This document shows positions 7,914 through 63,746 of a stretch of 64,000 nucleotides of DNA, piece by piece; the stretch's first letter is position 1; every line of letters begins with the position of its first letter. The translations under genes were made by a program, and so were the position numbers. The notes under the pieces were generated by a model, which was not told the DNA's origin, searched no databases, and saw nothing but the letters and a program-made list of their open reading frames with translations. The DNA comes from Occallatibacter sp. (GTDB lineage Bacteria > Acidobacteriota > Terriglobia > Terriglobales > Acidobacteriaceae): contig JARLFZ010000001.1 in the NCBI GenBank assembly GCA_031296305.1, forward strand, positions 62,001-126,000, given 5' to 3'.

Positions 7914-8945
7914 TCATCGCCACCTGAAAATCCTGAGCGACACCGCAAACGGCACCGCGCACCACGCCAGCAAAATCGCCAACGGCGTCATCATGTGGCC
8001 GAGTGGTATCCCCTGCAGCATGTTGCCGCGGATCGCGCTAATGGCCGCAGTCAGCGGAAGAGCCTGGACAAACGGCTGAAGGAACGCCGGAAAGCGCGAC
8101 GGCGAGAAGAAGACTCCCGACATAATCCACATCGGCATCATGACCAGGTTCATCAGGCCGCTGACAGCCTCCATGGTGCGGGCGCGCGAGGCGACGAGAA
8201 GACCCAGCGCCGAAAAAGTGAGCGAGCAGAGCACGCAGATGAGAGCCAAGTCGGCAACCGGCCCGCGAAACGGCACGCGAAATACCACCCACGCAAAGCC
8301 CAGCAGCACCACAACCTCGATGGCGAGCATGATGAGCCGCGCAAGCAGATAAGCCGCGAGGTATTGCCAGCGCGGCATCGGCGAGGCCACCATCCGCTTC
8401 AGCAGCTTCTTCGCACGCGCATCCACAATCGAGAATCCAAGACCCCACATCGCCGAGCCCATCAGGTTCATGCCCAGCAGACCGGGTACAAGAAAGTCGA
8501 TATAGCGCGAGCCGGTCTCGTGCATCAGTTGATTTTGGGCTTCAACCGGATCGTGCCGTCCCGCCGCAATCTGGATGTCGCGGTCGGCAATCATCCGAGC
8601 GGTCCGCGCATCCGGATTCGTGTCGTCGTATCTATACACGACGCTGTTTCCATTTCCGACGGCCAGCAACAAAATATTTCCCGTCGCCAGGGCGCGCGTC
8701 CCGGCAGCCTCATCCATCTCCATCGCGCGCAGCCCCTTGTTCGCAGCCAACGCCTGCGCCAGTTGCGGCGTCGTCGCGCCCACGGGCAGCACATCCGCCG
8801 GACGATTGCGGAACGCGATCCCCAATCCCAGCGCGAGCAAGATGGGAAACACGAAGATCCAGAAGATCGCCTCCGGCTCGCGCAGCGTCAGCTTGAACCG
8901 CGTTACGGTGAGTTGATAAAGGCTGCTTAATTCAAGCCTATTCAT
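7914..8945 (-). CDS. ABC-2 type transporter permease
   Basis: A 343-residue membrane protein with the ABC-2 layout: one N-terminal helix (about residues 25-45), a soluble loop of about 110 residues, then about five helices from residue 160 on, including LMNLVMMPMWIMSGVFFSP, typical of this superfamily. It overlaps the upstream ATPase gene by eight bases (8938-8945), so both subunits are translated as a coupled pair. The substrate is unknown; drugs, lipids or polysaccharides are handled by relatives. Just after the stop, on the coding strand, is a purine-rich AGGGAATAGGGAG motif similar to those after other genes in this window. Confidence 0.85.
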   Translation of the reverse strand: MNRLELSSLYQLTVTRFKLTLREPEAIFWIFVFPILLALGLGIAFRNRPADVLPVGATTPQLAQALAANKGLRAMEMDEAAGTRALATGNILLLAVGNGNSVVYRYDDTNPDARTARMIADRDIQIAAGRHDPVEAQNQLMHETGSRYIDFLVPGLLGMNLMGSAMWGLGFSIVDARAKKLLKRMVASPMPRWQYLAAYLLARLIMLAIEVVVLLGFAWVVFRVPFRGPVADLALICVLCSLTFSALGLLVASRARTMEAVSGLMNLVMMPMWIMSGVFFSPSRFPAFLQPFVQALPLTAAISAIRGNMLQGIPLGHMMTPLAILLAWCAVPFAVSLRIFRWR

Positions 8946-10005
8946 CGCGCAGGTTCCTCCCCGTCAGGCGCACAAACACGTCCTCAAGCGTGGCCGAATG
9001 CGTGCGAAATTCGCTCAAATGCAGCCCCTGCTCTTCGAGCGCCGCAAAAATACGCGGTACTGCCGTGTGCAGTTCACTCACCGAAAGCTGGTGCAATGCC
9101 TCATCCACACGATGCGATTGCACCCCCGGAATAGCCTTCAGCGTCTCCACATTTACGACGCCCTGCCCTCTCCCTGAACTGTCATCCCGAGCAGAGTTCG
9201 CCGCGTTCTTTGCGGCAAGCGTAGTCGAAGCGTCTGCGGTCGCTTTTAAGCCAACCGCAAACTCCACAATGTCCTCGCCGCCCACCATCGCGATCAGTTC
9301 CTTGGGCGTGCCCAGCGCAATCACGCGCCCATGATCCATAATCGCCACGCGATCGCACAGCCGCTCCGCCTCTTCCATGTAGTGCGTGGTCAGGATGATG
9401 GTGCGACCCGCCAGCTTCAGACGCTCCACCAGATCCCACACATGACGCCGCGCCTGCGGATCGAGCCCCGTCGTCGGCTCGTCGAGAAACAGCAACTCCG
9501 GATCGCCGACCAGCGCTGTCGCCATGGCTACGCGCTGCTTTTGTCCGCCGCTCAAACCGCCCACCCGCGCCTGCCGCTTCTCCTCAAGTTGCGCCAGCGC
9601 AATGGCCTCATCCAGCGTCATGCCGCGCCGGTAGAAACTCCGGAACAGGCGCAGCACTTCTTCCACGGTCAGCTTCTCGGGAAATTGCGTCTCCTGAAGT
9701 TGAATCCCGATCAACTGCCGCAACTCATCGGCATCGCGTTGCCAGCTCCGCCCCAGCAGTTCGACAGTGCCCGCATCCGGCGGCGTCAACCCTTCGCAAA
9801 TTTCGATCGTCGTGGTCTTCCCTGCACCGTTCGGCCCCAGCAGCCCAAAGCACTCGCCCGCACCAACCTCCAGGTCGATGCCGTCGACAGCGCGCACATC
9901 GCCAAAGGCCTTATGGAGCCCGCGAATGCGCACGGCAGCCTTGCCCGTATTTCCCAGCGCCACATCTGGATCTGCGTCCACGCGATCTCTCACTCTGTCC
10001 ACCAC
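8938..10005 (-). CDS. ABC transporter ATPase with a repeat-derived insert
   Basis: A 355-residue nucleotide-binding subunit for the permease that follows. Walker A is GPNGAGKTT, the signature LSGGQKQR, Walker B LLFLDEPTTGLD, and the switch His is in LTTHYMEEA. The C-terminal domain is of the type found in DrrA/CcmA-like exporters (DVFVRLTGRNLRDE end). Residues 254-275 are the translation of a family C dispersed repeat (9181-9246), an insertion absent from the second exporter ATPase of this window. The start is one of two adjacent GTG codons (10005 or 10002), with AGAGG about ten bases upstream. Confidence 0.87.
   Translation of the reverse strand: MVDRVRDRVDADPDVALGNTGKAAVRIRGLHKAFGDVRAVDGIDLEVGAGECFGLLGPNGAGKTTTIEICEGLTPPDAGTVELLGRSWQRDADELRQLIGIQLQETQFPEKLTVEEVLRLFRSFYRRGMTLDEAIALAQLEEKRQARVGGLSGGQKQRVAMATALVGDPELLFLDEPTTGLDPQARRHVWDLVERLKLAGRTIILTTHYMEEAERLCDRVAIMDHGRVIALGTPKELIAMVGGEDIVEFAVGLKATADASTTLAAKNAANSARDDSSGRGQGVVNVETLKAIPGVQSHRVDEALHQLSVSELHTAVPRIFAALEEQGLHLSEFRTHSATLEDVFVRLTGRNLRDE
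9181..9247. repeat. Family C repeat inside the ABC ATPase gene
   Basis: It matches 17827-17889 in the same orientation at most positions, starting GTCATCC(C/T)GAGC(A/G)GAG and ending GTCTGCGGTCGC versus ATCTGCGGTTGC. Read on the minus strand it encodes 22 residues in the ATPase frame without a stop. The other copy is intergenic, so the element is not ancestrally part of the ATPase. Confidence 0.8.
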
Positions 10006-12709: not shown

Positions 12710-12760
12710 CAGGATCGATCCCCTTCGATTCATTCGATAGGGCAGCCCGTAACCGCCGAC

Positions 12761-12794
12761 GGTGCCCCCGGTCCCTCGCCTTTGGGGACCGGGG
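12761..12794. repeat. Family B hairpin repeat, core form
   Basis: A 10-bp stem (CCCCGGTCCC / GGGACCGGGG) with a loop of about nine bases, between the convergent glgP and methyltransferase genes. It could act as a bidirectional stop for transcription, although no T-tract follows on either strand. Confidence 0.85.
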
Positions 12795-12825
12795 ATAGCT
12801 CCCCGCCAAAATCAGCCGATCGCAA

Positions 12826-16001: not shown

Positions 16002-16274
16002 AATCTTGCGCGCCAGGAGCTTGTAGCGCCGGTCTTCAGACCGGCTGTAGCGGGGGTCTCCAGACCCCCGCTGAGCAGGCCGGCCGTTGAAAATGGCCCG
16101 CCCCACCCGCCCTCGAGACGTCCATAAGGGATGCGGAATCTTGCGCGGCAGGAACTTGTAGCGCCGGTCTCCAGACCGGCTGTAGCGGGGGTCTCAAGAC
16201 CCCCGCTGGGCGAGTCGGCCGTTGAAAATGGCCCGCCCCACCTGCCCTCGAGACGTCTATGAGGGATGCGGATT
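16002..16274. repeat. Tandem 135-bp repeat pair containing family A hairpins
   Basis: Two head-to-tail copies with a period of 135 bases (about 16002-16136 and 16137-16271). Each has AATCTTGCGCG, a family A double hairpin, then a shared trailer (GGCCGTTGAAAATGGCCCGC and CCTCGAGACGT). The copies differ at scattered positions. The pair lies between the EAL gene and ispG, and an out-of-place upstream extension of the ispG frame runs into it. Confidence 0.88.
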
Positions 16275-16379: not shown

Positions 16380-17630
16380 ATGGCGGAGATTCATCGCAGA
16401 AAAACCCCCACCGTAAAAATTGGCCATGTGCGCGTAGGCTGGGAGGTCCCGGTCCTCGTGCAGTCCATGACCAACACCGACACGGCCGACGTGCAATCCA
16501 CCATTGAACAGGTTGCAGCCCTCGCCCTCGCCGGCTCTGAGATCGTGCGCGTCACCGTCAACAACGAGGACGCAGCCGCCGCCGTGCCGCACATCGTCGA
16601 GGGTCTCGAGAAACGCGGCCTCCGCGTCCCCATCGTCGGCGACTTCCACTACAACGGCCACATCCTGCTCAAGAAATATCCCGCCACGGCCCGCGCCCTC
16701 GCCAAGTACCGCATCAACCCCGGCAATGCCTCCATAGGCCGCAAAGACGACAACAACTTCCGCACCATGGTCGAGTGCGCCGTCGAGAATCAAAAGCCCG
16801 TACGCATCGGCGTCAACTGGGGTTCGCTCGATCAGTCTCTGCTCACGCGCATGATGGATGAGAACAGCAAAAAGGCGGAGCCAGCGCCCGCCCGCGACGT
16901 GATGATCGAAGCCATGATTGCCAGCGCCCTCCAGTCCGCCTCTTCCGCGGAGCACTACGGCCTTGGCCACGACATGATCATCCTCTCCGCCAAGGTGAGC
17001 GGCGTGCGCGATCTGCTCGATGTCTACACCAAGCTGGCCGCGCGCTGCGATTACGCTCTCCACCTCGGCCTCACCGAAGCCGGCATGGGCTCGAAAGGCC
17101 TGATCGCCTCCACCGCAGGCCTCGCGCCGCTGCTGCTCAACGGCATCGGCGACACCATTCGCGTCAGCCTCACCCCCAAGCCCAACGGCGACCGCACAGA
17201 AGAAGTGCTGGCCGCGCAGCAGATCCTGCAATCGCTCTCCATCCGCAGCTTCATGCCCCAGGTCACGAGCTGTCCCGGCTGCGGCCGCACCACAAGCACC
17301 TATTTCCAGGAGCTCGCCGAGCAAATTCAGAGCTACCTCCGCACCTCCATGCCCGAATGGCGCAAGAAGTATCCCGGCGTCGAAGAGCTCAAGCTCGCCG
17401 TCATGGGCTGCGTAGTCAACGGCCCCGGCGAGTCGAAGCACGCCAACCTCGGCATCAGCCTCCCCGGCACCTTCGAAGACCCCGTTGCGCCCGTCTACGT
17501 CGATGGCAAGCTCTCGACCACGTTACGCGGCGACACCATCGTCGCCGAATTCAAGCAGATCCTCGACAACTACGTAGAGAGCCACTACGGCCAGGCTGCG
17601 AAAAGCGGCGAACTCGTCGGCACGCACTAA
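16380..17630 (+). CDS. ispG: 4-hydroxy-3-methylbut-2-en-1-yl diphosphate synthase (IspG/GcpE)
   Basis: A 416-residue iron-sulfur enzyme of the MEP isoprenoid pathway that reduces methylerythritol cyclodiphosphate. Landmarks: [12 protein letters not shown] at the start, RINPGN and VNWGSLD in the barrel, and the [4Fe-4S] ligands in SCPGCGRTT and [11 protein letters not shown] (three cysteines). I start it at the ATG at 16380 ([15 protein letters not shown]); an open extension upstream of 38 codons is repeat sequence. Only a weak ribosome-binding site is visible. It supplies isoprenoid precursors, including those for the hopanoids implied by hpn genes further on. Confidence 0.95.
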
Positions 17631-17659: not shown

Positions 17660-17715
17660 GGCACGACTTCAGTCGTGCCGTCAGGCCGCAAAATGGGCGG
17701 GGCTTTAGCCCCTGA
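17660..17715. repeat. Family D double-hairpin repeat, copy 1
   Basis: GGCACGACT-tc-AGTCGTGCC (17660-17679), then GGGGCTttAGCCCC (17699-17712) and CTGAGG. A second, diverged copy lies at 17988-18046. It follows ispG by 29 bases and could end its transcript, but there is no T-run. Confidence 0.7.
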
Positions 17716-17808
17716 GGAAAGCGTCTCCGGCTAATATGCTTCAAGCGTACAATCGCTTGGCATGAAGGCAAGCTCCGTTCTCTTCATCCTTTTTGCAGTG
17801 CCTCTCAA
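17694..17808 (+). repeat. Duplicated segment, unit 1 (upstream region plus gene start)
   Basis: About 115 bases matching 18027-18142 almost throughout: the GGGCTTTAGCCCCTGAGG hairpin end, AAAGCGTCTCCGGCTAAT, AGCGTACAATCGCTTGGCAT, then the first 13 or so codons of a gene. The second unit continues into the intact TonB-domain gene at 18094; this one does not. Confidence 0.85.
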
Positions 17809-17836
17809 ATCGCCACCCAGAAGCTTGTCATCCTGA
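17762..17836 (+). pseudogene. Truncated copy of the TonB-domain gene (signal peptide only)
   Basis: The ATG and following codons give MKASSVLFILFAV, nearly the same as MRASSVLFILFAI of the intact gene at 18094. After about 13 codons the similarity ends, and the frame reaches a TGA that lies inside a family C repeat. What remains is an export signal with no body, best explained as a partial duplication or a gene copy cut by repeat-associated rearrangement. Confidence 0.72.
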
Positions 17837-17889
17837 GCGGAGTTTGCCGCGTTTTTTGCGGCTAACGGAGTCGAAGGATCTGCGGTTGC
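17827..17889. repeat. Family C repeat, intergenic copy
   Basis: It starts GTCATCCTGAGCGGAG, has a GCCGC-gtttttt-GCGGC hairpin, and ends GTCGAAGGATCTGCGGTT. It is the same element found in frame in the ABC ATPase at 9181-9247, and it is followed 30 bases later by a family B repeat. Confidence 0.82.
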
Positions 17890-17918
17890 CTTTCGCGCCT
17901 TCCACTCAACACGATGAG

Positions 17919-17987: not shown

Positions 17988-18046
17988 GACGCGGCATTCG
18001 GCCGCGTCGCAAACGCCCCCAAAAATGTGGCGGGCTTTAGCCCCTG
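17988..18046. repeat. Family D double-hairpin repeat, copy 2
   Basis: The first hairpin is GACGCGGC-attcg-GCCGCGTC, different in sequence from copy 1 but equal in design. The second, GGGCTTTAGCCCC, is nearly identical to copy 1 and begins duplication unit 2 (18027-18142), which leads into the intact TonB-domain gene. Confidence 0.65.
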
Positions 18047-18093
18047 AGGAAAGCGTCTCCGGCTAATGCGCTCTAAGCGTACAATCGCTTGGC

Positions 18094-18495
18094 ATGAGGG
18101 CAAGCTCCGTTCTCTTCATCCTCTTTGCGATCCTCCCTTCCACAACGTCTGCGCAAACGCAGCCAAAATCGCATGCAGTCCGGCCAGAGATTGAACTCAA
18201 CATCTCGTCCGGAGTTGCGGAAAAACTCCTCATCCACAAGGCCGAGCTGCAGTGCCCTAAGATTGCAATGCCTCCACGCATTACGGGCACGGTCGTTGTT
18301 GCGTTCACGCTCGACAGAGGTGGCAACGTTCGCAATCCCACGGTAATCTCCGGCCCTGCCCTGCTAAGGAAGCCCGTTCTTGATGCGGTTCGCCAATACA
18401 AATACAAACCATACCTCTTGAATGGCAAGGCGGTCGAAGTGGAGACGACCGTCTCGGTCGCCGTCGACACAGCTCGCGACTGTCCTAACTGGTAG
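18094..18495 (+). CDS. Small secreted protein with TonB C-terminal domain
   Basis: A 133-residue protein: signal peptide to about residue 20 (ends TTSAQ), then a short linker and a TonB-type C-terminal domain with the usual core (ITGTVVVAFTLDRGGNVRNPTV, then a VLDAVRQYKYKPYLLNGK block resembling A.A.V.QW.F.PA...G). It lacks the N-terminal anchor and proline-rich spacer of a true TonB, so it cannot by itself couple to ExbB/ExbD; such stand-alone domains are common in this phylum and their role is unclear. A truncated copy of its first exon-like 13 codons and upstream region lies at 17694-17836. Confidence 0.75.
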   Translation: MRASSVLFILFAILPSTTSAQTQPKSHAVRPEIELNISSGVAEKLLIHKAELQCPKIAMPPRITGTVVVAFTLDRGGNVRNPTVISGPALLRKPVLDAVRQYKYKPYLLNGKAVEVETTVSVAVDTARDCPNW

Positions 18496-59081: not shown

Positions 59082-59088
59082 CGCGTCC

Positions 59089-59138
59089 TGTAGCGCCGGT
59101 CTCCTGACCGGCTGTCGTGTGGGCGTCCACGCCCGCAC
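59089..59138. repeat. Family A repeat, variant second arm, in the cimA leader
   Basis: The first hairpin GCCGGTCT-cct-GACCGGC is as in other copies, but the second is GTGGGCG-tcca-CGCCCGCAC-like instead of GCGGGGGTC. It ends seven bases from the cimA start codon on the minus strand. The copy at 61475-61524 shares the variant arm. Confidence 0.82.
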
Positions 59139-59342
59139 ATTTCCGGGCACCACCAAATCGCACTGTCAGAGCACGATCATTCGCCAGGGCTTTTCAGCCG
59201 TGCGACAAGAAAACTCTCACATTACCATCATATCGTGACCCAGGATTTCAGGCGCTCCAACGTCAGAGGCAAAGATAGGCAGGAGTGAAAAAATAAATCT
59301 GGGACGGGCTAGAGCAATTCTGATCTCTGTTCCCTGCTTGAT

Positions 59343-61424
59343 TCACACCGCAGGCGCGGCTGAAGGCTCCCGTGACGGCGGCACCAGGGCGCCAGTTTCC
59401 TGGTCCTTGTACTGCAACTGGTAGAGCTTCCAGTAAAGACCGCGCTGCGCGAGCAACTCCTGGTGCGAGCCCATCTCGCGCAACTGGCCCTTGTGCATCA
59501 CCAGAATGGTTTCAGCCCTTTGCACTGTCGACAGCCTGTGCGCAATGAGCACACTGGTGCGCCCTTCGACCAATCGCTCGAGTGCCCCGCGAATGCGCAG
59601 CTCCGTGTCGGTGTCGACGCTCGACGTGGCTTCGTCAAGAATGAGAATGCGCGGGTTGTAGGCCAGCGCGCGGGCAAAGTTGATGAGCTGCTTTTGCCCC
59701 GTGGAAAGCGAGTTGCCGCGCTCGCGTACCGGCTCGTCGAAGCCGCTGGGAAGCGACTCGATGAAGTCGAGTACGTTGACGTCCTTCGCGGCGCGGCGCA
59801 TGGTGGCGTCGGAGATTTCTTCATTGCCGAGGCGAATGTTTTCACCGATGGTGCCCGAGAAGAGGAAGGGATCCTGCAACACCACCGCGAAGTGGCGGCG
59901 GAGCGCCGTCAAATCGTGATCGCGAAGGTCCACGCCATCAATGAGGATGCGGCCGGCAGTGACCTCGTAAAAGCGCATCATCAGGCTGGTGAGCGTGGTT
60001 TTGCCCGCACCAGTGTGACCGACAATCGCCACCGTCTGCCCCGGCTCGATGGTGAAGGAAACGTCTTTCAGAATCCACTCGATATTCTCGAGGCCGGCGA
60101 GTTCAGCGCCATCTACCGCCCCGTGCTCGGCCTTTGCCACCGCGGCCTTCTGCGCATCCGTGAGCTTTTGATAGGTGAACCAGACATGCCGAAATTCAAT
60201 GCGATTCGATCCGTCGCCGGCTATGACGTGCGCTGGGCTGACAATCTCCGGCGCTGAATCCATAAGCTTGAAAATGCGCTCACACGCGGCCATCGCGGAT
60301 TGCAGGATGTTGTACTTGTCGCTCAGGTCCTGGATGGGCCGCCAGAAGCGCAACGAAAATTGCGTGAACATGATGAGCACGCCGATGGTGACCGTGGGCG
60401 GCAGGTGCAGCGCCCCAAAGCCGCCGCGCCACACCACGAGAGCAATGGCGACAGAAGAGAGAAAATCGACAGCCGGATAATAAAGCGCGTAGGCAAGGAT
60501 CGTGTCCATGAAGGCAATCATGTGCTGCCGGTTTACGGCTTCGAAGTCCCTGTAGGCGCGATCCTCGCGATTGAATAGTTGCACAACGCTCATGCCCGAA
60601 ATGTGCTCTTGGGTGAAACTATTGATACGCGCGATGGCAGTCCTCACGCGCCGGAAGCTCTCACGCACATGATCTCTGAAGACGCGCGTGACGATCAAAA
60701 TCAGCGGCAGCACCGCGAAGGCCAGCAGCGACAGCCACCAACTGATGGCGAGCATGACGGCGGCCATAATGGCGAGCATGAAAAAGTCGTTGACGATGGC
60801 CAGCACACCGTCGGTGAACATGTCGTTGACGGCGTCGACATCTGACGTGATACGCGTGACCAGACGTCCCACTGGATTCACGTCGAAGAAGCCCACGTGC
60901 ATGCGCTGCATATGGCGGAAGATGTCGCGGCGCAGATCGAACATGATCTTCTGGCCGGTCCATTGCATCAGGTAGACCTGAACGAACTGGAAGAGATAGG
61001 CGGAAACCAGCATCGTCAGGTAGATGGCTGCGAGCCGCGTCACGCCCGCAACGGCTCCTTCAGGAAGCAGGCGGGCGAGAGGACTCGCATTCGCCACCCA
61101 ATGCGCCACAGCATTCGAGGGATCTGTTGCGATCAGGTCGGGGGCCAGATAGCGATCGACGGCCACCATTACGAGGATCGGTCCGGCTACGTCGCAGAGC
61201 GACTTCAGCGTAACGGAGAGCGCAGCGATGCCGGCCTGCAGCCAGTAGGGGCGCACATAGTGGCCCAGCCGCCGCATCAAGTGCGCGTCATACACTTTGC
61301 CGACCGGATCTTCATCAGGCTTCTTACGGGTTTCCTCGCGGGGTTCGCTCAAACTGGACGGTGCCCCGGGTTTCGCCGAGGGTTCAGAGCCGGATTTGGT
61401 CTTGTTGTCTTCTGATTCCGCCAT
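59343..61424 (-). CDS. ABC exporter, fused membrane and ATPase domains (MsbA/MdlB-like)
   Basis: 693 residues: a charged N-terminal tail (about 60), six transmembrane helices (about 65-370) and a nucleotide-binding domain with GHTGAGKTT, LSTGQKQ, ILILDEATSSVD and AHRLST. Between the A-loop Tyr in VWFTYQ and the strand before Walker A, about 28 extra residues (LTDAQKAAVAKAEHG and GAELAGLE) are inserted, which is unusual. As a half-transporter it should dimerise; the substrate is unknown. The ATG at 61422-61424 has no close ribosome-binding site, though GGGAGG is 24 bases upstream. The frame extends into a family A repeat. Confidence 0.88.
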   Translation of the reverse strand: MAESEDNKTKSGSEPSAKPGAPSSLSEPREETRKKPDEDPVGKVYDAHLMRRLGHYVRPYWLQAGIAALSVTLKSLCDVAGPILVMVAVDRYLAPDLIATDPSNAVAHWVANASPLARLLPEGAVAGVTRLAAIYLTMLVSAYLFQFVQVYLMQWTGQKIMFDLRRDIFRHMQRMHVGFFDVNPVGRLVTRITSDVDAVNDMFTDGVLAIVNDFFMLAIMAAVMLAISWWLSLLAFAVLPLILIVTRVFRDHVRESFRRVRTAIARINSFTQEHISGMSVVQLFNREDRAYRDFEAVNRQHMIAFMDTILAYALYYPAVDFLSSVAIALVVWRGGFGALHLPPTVTIGVLIMFTQFSLRFWRPIQDLSDKYNILQSAMAACERIFKLMDSAPEIVSPAHVIAGDGSNRIEFRHVWFTYQKLTDAQKAAVAKAEHGAVDGAELAGLENIEWILKDVSFTIEPGQTVAIVGHTGAGKTTLTSLMMRFYEVTAGRILIDGVDLRDHDLTALRRHFAVVLQDPFLFSGTIGENIRLGNEEISDATMRRAAKDVNVLDFIESLPSGFDEPVRERGNSLSTGQKQLINFARALAYNPRILILDEATSSVDTDTELRIRGALERLVEGRTSVLIAHRLSTVQRAETILVMHKGQLREMGSHQELLAQRGLYWKLYQLQYKDQETGALVPPSREPSAAPAV

Positions 61425-61474
61425 CGGCCGCGTAGGGTGGGCTTCCTCCCTTATTGTACGAGGAGTGCGGCAGA

Positions 61475-61524
61475 TGTAGCGCCGGTCTCCTGACCGGCTG
61501 TAATGCGGGCGTCCACGCCTGCGC
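61475..61524. repeat. Family A repeat, variant second arm, upstream of the ABC exporter
   Basis: GCCGGTCT-cct-GACCGGC followed by ATGCGGGCGTCCACGCCTGC. It lies 50 bases upstream of the ABC exporter start, on the leader side. Same variant as at 59089-59138. Confidence 0.82.
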
Positions 61525-61562
61525 ATGTTCATAACCTATTACGAAGTCGGGCGGCCAATGCT

Positions 61563-61688
61563 CTATTCGCCGGGTCCGGCCTTGGCCGAGGGCTTTGGCT
61601 CGGGTTTGGGCTTCGGCCTGGGCCGCGAAACGCCGAAACTCAGCAGCACAAACCCGAAGCCCTTCTTGAGCGTATCGAGGAAACTCAT
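61563..61688 (-). CDS. Very small Lys/Pro-rich protein
   Basis: 41 residues: MSFLDTLKKGFGFVLLSFGV, a hydrophobic helix that could insert in the membrane, then a tail with alternating Lys/Arg and Pro (RPRPKPKPEPKPSAK). The gene begins 52 bases after the cytochrome c gene on the same strand. The frame is open 39 codons further upstream, but that part overlaps the cytochrome gene. The ribosome-binding site is weak, so the call rests on the protein-like composition and position. Confidence 0.45.
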   Translation of the reverse strand: MSFLDTLKKGFGFVLLSFGVSRPRPKPKPEPKPSAKAGPGE

Positions 61689-61740
61689 GGTCCCACTTTC
61701 CCTTCGTTCCTGAGCAACACGACCACCTGCCGCTCGCGCT

Positions 61741-62307
61741 TCAAGGCTTTTGCACAACGGGTGGCGCGGGAGGCGCAGCCGTCTGCTCGCCGCGGATGAT
61801 GGCAAGGGCCGCCGGAGGCAATGGCTTATCGGCGTTGGCCAGCAGCAGACTTACCTGCCACATTTGCGTGTCGGTGAGCGTGACCTTGAAAGAAGGCATG
61901 CCGGTCAGCCGAATCCCATTCGCGACCTTCCAATATGTTTCGCCCGGCGGGTCGTCGCTCACGCCCACCACGTCGCTGTTCTTGTGCTTCACCCACAGCC
62001 CCGGAGCGCCGGGATACATATGCGCGCCAAAGCTCGAGGGCTTGCCATAAAACCCGTGGCAGGCCGAGCATTGGTCGCGGTAAACCTCCGCCCCAGCCGT
62101 GAGATTGTCCTGGTCGGCCTGGATGGGCGGATTCCCCGGCAATTCGCGGGCAACCCGCGCGTCGAGCGCCACATGCGTAATCTGCTTCTCCATAGGCAGG
62201 GGCGGATCGGCCACGGCCACCGGCACGTTCCCCCAGTGGAACCACGCCAAAAGCGCTAGCGGCGCCAGTATCAGCGCCAGAATCATTCCAAAGACGATGC
62301 GACCCAT
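61741..62307 (-). CDS. Membrane-anchored c-type cytochrome
   Basis: 188 residues: an N-terminal helix (about 4-24) as anchor or signal, then one class I heme c domain with CSACH (Cys80, Cys83, His84) and the axial methionine probably in GMPSF near residue 146. The C-terminus is Ala/Pro-rich. It is a mono-heme electron carrier on the outer face of the inner membrane. GGAGGGAG precedes the ATG by about ten bases. No oxidase or complex III gene is adjacent. Confidence 0.88.
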   Translation of the reverse strand: MGRIVFGMILALILAPLALLAWFHWGNVPVAVADPPLPMEKQITHVALDARVARELPGNPPIQADQDNLTAGAEVYRDQCSACHGFYGKPSSFGAHMYPGAPGLWVKHKNSDVVGVSDDPPGETYWKVANGIRLTGMPSFKVTLTDTQMWQVSLLLANADKPLPPAALAIIRGEQTAAPPAPPVVQKP

Positions 62308-62673
62308 GGTTTCTTGCTCCCTCCATCCCCGACTTTAACTTCTGGCAGTCTTGCAGATCATTTCAGCAGTTTACGCAACAATAACAGGTACGCATTCAGA
62401 AATGGAGTTGGACCGTTGGGGCGCATCGCTTCCCAGATCGCCTTCTATCCCCCAGCGGCTTCGATCAGGCCCAGTTGCTGGCCGACCTGAAAGCGATTGT
62501 TTAGCCTCTCAGTTGCCGCTTCACTCCTCCGCGCGTCAAAACAGAGCAGGACAACGGACAAACCCCGGCCAAGGCTCCCCCCAACTCGTTCCAAGATGTT
62601 TTAATACCAATGGGGGGAGCTAGTCGGCCGTTTGGGTCCGCTCCCGTACTCCCGTGGAGGAATCCCGATACCG
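62308..62673. other. Intergenic region between divergent genes
   Basis: 366 bases separating the cytochrome and outer-membrane protein genes. Open frames here are short and unsupported. I see no family A-D repeat; it likely holds both promoters. Confidence 0.5.
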
Positions 62674-63444
62674 ATGCAATCTTTTCGCCGTCTCGCCTTT
62701 TTGCTGGCGTTCGCATTGCCGGCCATGCCAGCCGCATTCGCACAAAGCTCAAATAGTTCTCCATCGAGCGCCACGCCCGACCAAAGCCAATCTGGAAATC
62801 AGACCAGCTCCAGTCAGCAATCCGCCCAGGAATCCCAGGGGCAAATCAACGTCCAGGCACGCATCCGCCAGCGCCGCGAACAGCGCCGCGCCACCGCCAT
62901 CCACGACGCCTACGACCACAAGTGGGAGTCCTACGCCGACATGGGCTATCTCCGCTTCCAGCCTGGCCCGTCGCTGCAGCGCCTCACTTTCTACTCGTGG
63001 GAGACGGGCCTGACCCGCTTTTCCAACGAGCGGCTGGGCTACACCCTCGACGGCCGCGGCTACTACGGCACCGCCTACGTGGGCCTCAACCCCTACAGCC
63101 AGGGCGCGTTCACTCGGCCCGAGATCAGCATGTACAACGTGCTCTTCGGCCCGGTTTACCGCTTCTATCTGCAACCCAAGTATTCGGTCTCAGGCCGCGT
63201 AATGGGCGGCTGGGCGCACGGCAACTTCTCCGGCGACACCAACGGCATCACGCCTAAGCTTCTCGGCCTCTACCCGGATGCCAATACTTTCGCCGCCAGC
63301 GCCAGCGTCATTGGCGAGTACAATCTGGCGCCGAGCGTCGGCTTCAAACTCGCGCCCGAGTATTTCGTCACCGGTTTCGGCTCGACTGTGCAGAGCAGCC
63401 TCGGCTTTACCGCCGGCATCGTCTACCGCTGGGGAAAGCAGTAA
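62674..63444 (+). CDS. Probable outer-membrane beta-barrel protein
   Basis: 256 residues with a signal peptide (about 1-24, ends AFAQ), a Ser/Gln-rich linker (25-65), a basic helix (RIRQRREQRRAT) and about 160 residues of alternating strands with many Tyr, Gly and Phe (RLGYTLDGRGYYGTAYVGL, YRFYLQPKYSVSG, VGFKLAPEYFVTGFG). It ends GIVYRWGKQ; a terminal aromatic strand of this sort suits a small barrel. The ATG at 62674 follows GGAGG by 14 bases, so an upstream start 14 codons earlier cannot be ruled out. The function is unknown. Confidence 0.72.
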   Translation: MQSFRRLAFLLAFALPAMPAAFAQSSNSSPSSATPDQSQSGNQTSSSQQSAQESQGQINVQARIRQRREQRRATAIHDAYDHKWESYADMGYLRFQPGPSLQRLTFYSWETGLTRFSNERLGYTLDGRGYYGTAYVGLNPYSQGAFTRPEISMYNVLFGPVYRFYLQPKYSVSGRVMGGWAHGNFSGDTNGITPKLLGLYPDANTFAASASVIGEYNLAPSVGFKLAPEYFVTGFGSTVQSSLGFTAGIVYRWGKQ

Positions 63445-63462
63445 ACGAACGGCGCAGCGAAC

Positions 63463-63618
63463 TTGTAGCGCCGGTCTCCAGTCTTGTAGCGCCGGTCTCC
63501 AGTCTTGTAGCGCCGGTCTCCAGTCTTGTAGCGCCGATCTCCAGTCTTGTAGCGCCCGTCTCCTGTCTTGTAGCGCCGGTCTCCTGACCGGCTGTAGCGG
63601 GGGTCTCCAGACCCCCGC
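63463..63618. repeat. Family A repeat with a 21-base arm amplified six times
   Basis: Starts of TTGTAGCGCC at 63463, 63484, 63505, 63526, 63547 and 63568, exactly 21 bases apart. The first five units contain only the left half of the first hairpin (TTGTAGCGCCGGTCTCCAGTC); the last continues into a full family A element ending at 63618. Single-base differences mark units 4 and 5. It follows the outer-membrane protein gene by 18 bases. Confidence 0.92.
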
Positions 63619-63746
63619 ATCGAGCGCATATCCACTGCCTCTCCGGTTGCCCCATCCAAAAGCTCGCAGCAACGCGGCGAGCTTTTGGGTGGGACAGCGC
63701 GACTCCGTCCCATACCGCGTCACAGCATCCCTGCCACGCGAACCTC

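Follow-up and report, generated by a model that had tools for sequence, protein, structure and literature searches.

The window, a stretch of 64,000 nucleotides, belongs to contig C83 of G000, a draft genome of 4.1 Mb (84% complete) whose relatives mark it as acidobacterial, and encodes an ABC exporter whose ATPase gene contains a short, dispersed palindromic repeat read in frame. The ATPase harbors an ABC_tran domain (PF00005, E 5.8e-30) followed by a C-terminal domain of the DrrA1-3-like type (PF13732, E 2.2e-5, slightly below the curated cut-off), and its closest named relative, at 71% identity, comes from an Acidobacteriaceae metagenome bin. The ATG start of the partner permease gene overlaps the 3' end of the ATPase gene at its stop codon, and the two genes are probably cotranscribed. 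The repeat within the ATPase gene belongs to what we call family C, and a second, unrelated palindromic family, D, is also found in the window. The relevant features are as follows.

7914..8945, minus strand: ABC-2 permease, partner gene of the ATPase (PF01061, E 8.7e-29)
8938..10005, minus strand: ABC-exporter ATPase (ABC_tran and DrrA1-3-like C-terminal domain), 355 aa, GTG start
9180..9247, plus strand: family C palindromic repeat, in frame in the ATPase; on the minus strand, residues 254-273 and the next few
9200..9216, plus strand: variable inner hairpin of the ATPase copy, GCCGCG-TTCTT-TGCGGC
12758..12799, plus strand: family D palindromic repeat, one of five window copies (4012, 5133, 12758, 17916 and 39064)
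17826..17893, plus strand: the window's other family C copy, in the intergenic space between an ORF that ends at 17630 and one that starts at 18094

The core of the repeat, TGTCATCC...TCTGCGGT, occupies window positions 9180-9240, inside the ATPase gene, and an extension reaches 9247. It is translated as the stop-free peptide KATADASTTLAAKNAANSAR (residues 254-273). The original prediction had located the repeat at 9181-9247, which is correct within one base, and had stated that the frame is kept and no stop is added, as is borne out by the 355-residue ORF that reads through this segment. The match that it had noted to the copy at 17826 is also real, with identity at 57 of 68 positions; that copy is intergenic as described, but the genome holds dozens of copies rather than two. 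The arms of the inner hairpin pair in the DNA fold. The ATPase copy was also examined as a single strand for strong folding, and none was found (z -0.6 and -0.2 versus shuffled sequences).

In the AlphaFold2 model of the ATPase both domains are modelled well (mean pLDDT 87.9), and the nearest solved structure in the PDB is 4yer. The insert is situated in an exposed loop that follows the first strand of the C-terminal domain and is not a core element; this keeps the earlier placement in that domain and narrows it to a single loop. Residues 254-285, between the strand 245-253 and the helix 286-290, are without secondary structure, pLDDT falls under 50 at residues 267-278, and the loop that bears the insert is thus predicted to be disordered.

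In family C the arms are constant, TGTCATCCTGAGCG...AGTCGAAGGAYCTGCGGTTGC, and the inner hairpin that they enclose varies from copy to copy; as aligned, the left arm is TGTCATCCTGAGCG and the right arm is AGTCGAAGGAYCTGCGGTTGCYYTTC. Copies are mostly 40-80 bp in size and intergenic, and some hold another unit nested within. The genome contains about 40-50 of them: a two-ended pattern finds 10 sites (0 when reversed), a 65-base query finds about 40 elements, and 52 left ends are present, some tandem or degenerate. Searches with exact patterns detect family C in 38 of the 59 genus genomes and, across the phylum, in 20 of 297 genomes, largely members of the family to which the window belongs; reversed controls gave 0 matches in both sets. 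A minority of copies is enclosed by a longer form whose ends are inverted repeats, CTAGTGTnnnGAGTCWGAAGTTCG, seen in G000 at C88:30173-30304 (L256) and on C89 and C154; this form occurs in 13 of 79 genus genomes and is commonest in G064. The inverted repeats CTAGTGT...GAAGTTCG border some family C copies, not the ATPase copy, which holds the core only, and empty sites are too diverged for a target-site duplication to be read. Around the intergenic copy of the window, direct repeats at 17690-17796 and 18022-18128 are 92% identical; they reflect duplication, in truncated form, of the 5' end of the ORF at 18094, and the truncated ORF takes its stop codon from the family C copy at 17826.

No Rfam family matches the repeat. 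The core ends in the aligned copies are TGTCATCC and CTGCGGTTGCYYTTC, from which the GTAG tag is absent; the CGTC tag is likewise absent from the consensus arms, and where CGTC does occur, within the ATPase copy, it derives from GGATC by a change private to that copy. A link to a RAYT (Y1 transposase) was sought in G000, where at 84% completeness the gene could be missing, and was not found: the sole Y1_Tnp gene found there is bordered by GTAGCCCCAGTC-type repeats, and the nearest family C copy lies more than 3 kb off. No parent transposon was identified. That the element is mobile, as described earlier, is inferred from its dispersal; no transposase could be tied to family C. A literature search on the family C sequence gave no relevant paper among the matches listed, and one on palindromes of Acidobacteria returned only a survey of REPs (PMC3733652) and one unrelated study.

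Alignment of ATPase orthologues, as the original prediction had suggested, reveals the gap. The insert is missing in 33 homologues from other lineages and in most of 31 same-genus orthologues, in which the loop between VEFAV and GVQSHR has 13-31 residues in most cases and up to 55 where repeats are present. Because distant homologues and most same-genus orthologues lack it, the segment is an insertion rather than ancestral coding sequence; its presence across distant orthologues, which would have refuted the prediction, was looked for and not found. Nucleotide profiles of families C and D were built from copies elsewhere in the genome, and 35 ATPase genes were searched with them. The C profile matches the loop of G064 (1.6e-15), of the window's own gene (8.8e-14, solely in the insert) and of G029 (1e-7), and twice that of G019, which carries two tandem units (6e-8 and 2e-7). 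The loop of G074 contains a decayed relative, recognized by alignment with G029, and next to this unit, in frame, is another palindrome, GGGTGCCCCGTCCAAGC...GCTTGGGCGGGG (L173). The inner hairpin of the G000 copy is not matched in the other carriers, each of which has other hairpins. Family D sits in frame in the same loop of three further species, its profile matching there in G003 (2e-11), in G062 (4e-11) and, weakly, in G061 (0.0055). Neither profile has a significant match elsewhere in the 35 genes. The loops of G035, G023 and G078 are repeat-like by eye and without significant match to either profile; those of G035 and G078 have 43 and 45 residues.

Family D, which is unrelated to family C, has about 40 copies in G000. 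A further family of the window, D1 (GTAGCGCCGGTCTCCAGACCGGC...), is a GTAG-tagged, REP-like repeat with seven copies (195-252, 16017-16209 and 59084-63621), and is accompanied by a 21-bp tandem array at 63441-63605.

Parsimony on a tree of the permease and the ATPase minus its loop requires at least three changes for C and at least three for D, and the grouping of carriers as one clade is rejected both for C (p-AU 1e-6) and for D (p-AU 7e-4). Since every family C carrier falls within one well-supported clade of ten, fewer C insertions, combined with losses, are possible. Taken together, the comparisons of these genes indicate that the ATPase loop is a recurrent landing site for unrelated repeat families.

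Purifying selection acts on either side of the insert and is strong in the C-terminal domain downstream of it. Between G000 and its sister species G019, also a repeat carrier, dN/dS is 0.013 in this domain, with synonymous sites changed at about half of positions since the split, and values of 0.04-0.15 are obtained in other comparisons involving carriers. The loop itself is near neutral or close to saturated. Strong purifying selection after the insert suggests that the ATPase gene is read through the repeat, and lends indirect support to production of the protein with its insert.

Family C is also found in other genes, as a count of copies within coding sequence, again proposed by the original prediction, makes clear. 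In an Lhr-type helicase of G000 a copy lies in frame in a loop and is read in the same TADPST..AQDD frame as in the ATPase; this helicase-loop copy occurs in five genomes (G000 and four relatives) and is not there in seven other relatives. In the helicase of G019 (L223) a second unit is apparently nested in the family C hairpin with the frame kept. An ABC-F ATPase of G000 has a degenerate copy in its C-terminal linker, read in another frame, and a similar one is present in G006. Among the roughly 38 full copies outside the exporter ATPase, only that of the helicase is in a recognizable gene. Further ORFs that run across family C copies lack any Pfam match and seem spurious, and so few copies count as lying inside genes. 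A DUF5995 gene (L057, ORF from 606) takes its stop codon, TGA, from within a family C copy. Where the length of a copy is divisible by three, one antisense frame meets a TGA of the repeat, and the TADPST..AQDD frame is polar and usually open.

These observations are very probably explained by a dispersed palindromic repeat that inserted in a loop of the C-terminal domain, with insertions filtered by selection and tolerated rather than adopted. Arrival would have been by insertion, as opposed to recombination or copying. Family C insertions may arise at many sites in the genome, and those that survive in genes would be the ones that keep the frame, escape the TGA that some repeat frames contain and land in a loop without fixed structure. 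The frame used in the ATPase would give a polar peptide rich in Ala, Ser, Thr and Pro (TADPST...AQDD) that is able to stay unfolded. The ATPase loop may be one of few places where insertions survive, such that C and D settled there in different species; once settled, repeats would drift, turn over their hairpins and be lost. The insert peptide most likely only lengthens the loop and has no further role. The original proposal of a hairpin repeat tolerated as protein is thus upheld by a dispersed repeat at a site that is empty in distant homologues and most relatives.

A possible, though rather doubtful, alternative is that a single family C insertion occurred in the ancestor of the ten-species clade, that it was later lost or overwritten in half of these species, and that hairpins were swapped by recombination between copies, which would make the loop an old scar and not a site of repeated C landing. 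The confinement of all C carriers to one starred clade is in keeping with this, as are the flanking residues (VCA...EC.PT) common to G064, G029 and G074, the resemblance of the hairpin in the right-hand unit of G019 (GTCCGC...GCGGAC) to that of G064, and the same frame being read in every C carrier. Against it, the grouping of the C carriers as one clade is rejected, about five losses would be required, G062 has D in the loop, and the D insertions that G003 and G061 acquired separately are left unexplained.

Insertion and tolerance have also to be set against explanations that assign the repeat a function or deny that it is one. That the repeat was adopted, the peptide or the longer loop working in the exporter, for example in contact with the permease, was the other option offered by the original prediction and now seems improbable: an in-frame, repeat-derived insert does persist in both G000 and G019 despite the extent of synonymous change between them, but the loop is hypervariable, near neutral and anywhere from 13 to 55 residues long, its repeats are not the same in all species and are subject to decay, and the majority of orthologues have none. 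We consider it just as improbable that the element works as DNA or RNA, through an mRNA hairpin that tunes expression of the downstream permease, with the coding effect incidental. The overlap and probable cotranscription of the two genes would suit such a role, as would the mostly intergenic location of family C, yet as folded DNA the ATPase copy does not exceed shuffled sequence in stability, and its hairpin is not kept from one carrier to the next. Finally, residues rich in Ala, Ser and Thr are frequent in this loop in other species, and the segment might on that basis be ordinary low-complexity coding sequence with a chance or convergent likeness to the repeat. The chance of this is negligible given a 68-base nucleotide match, its E value to the profile of other copies and the gap in orthologues, and the match at the nucleotide level led us to reject it.

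Selective tolerance of inserted repeats can be extended, tentatively and with the odds against it, to the idea that, in a few proteins of this bacterial family, disordered loops serve repeatedly as docking sites for unrelated palindromic repeats, which would be translated in a favored peptide frame, have their hairpins replaced over time and then leave. If this were true, the repeats of a genome would supply new protein loops steadily. Across the genus, a single site in a single gene presents an unusually clear series, from an empty loop through single, tandem and decayed units to an unrelated one, and on this series the long-standing question of whether repeats in proteins are tolerated noise or raw material becomes testable. 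Gene prediction and orthology assignment in these genomes will also encounter repeat-derived peptides in real proteins.

Several known systems bear comparison. Some MITEs are described as forming in-frame fusions (reviewed in PMC10969869), and a minority of family C copies resembles them in lying within a longer form with terminal inverted repeats, unlike the ATPase copy, which is core only, and with no parent transposon identified. Rickettsia palindromic elements (RPEs; Ogata and colleagues 2000, 2002), as outlined in the same review, are found in frame in unrelated protein genes, where they are retained; they are about 150 bp long and nearly half are in genes. Family C shares with them a dispersed palindromic nature and in-frame insertion relative to orthologues, but is mostly 40-80 bp and, in G000, nearly always intergenic. 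The intragenic GTAG- and CGTC-tagged REPs surveyed in 2013 (BMC Genomics 14:522, PMC3733652) are short dispersed palindromes, mostly intergenic, with some in frame in unrelated proteins, and family C is like them in all of these respects; it differs in having neither end tag, in its constant arms around a variable hairpin, and in that no associated transposase was found. The same survey reports one case, recB of two Xanthomonas species, of different REPs at about the same site, whereas here two unrelated families occupy one loop across several species. The type of event is therefore already known from intragenic REPs and RPEs, and what sets the present case apart is a landing site common to two unrelated families.
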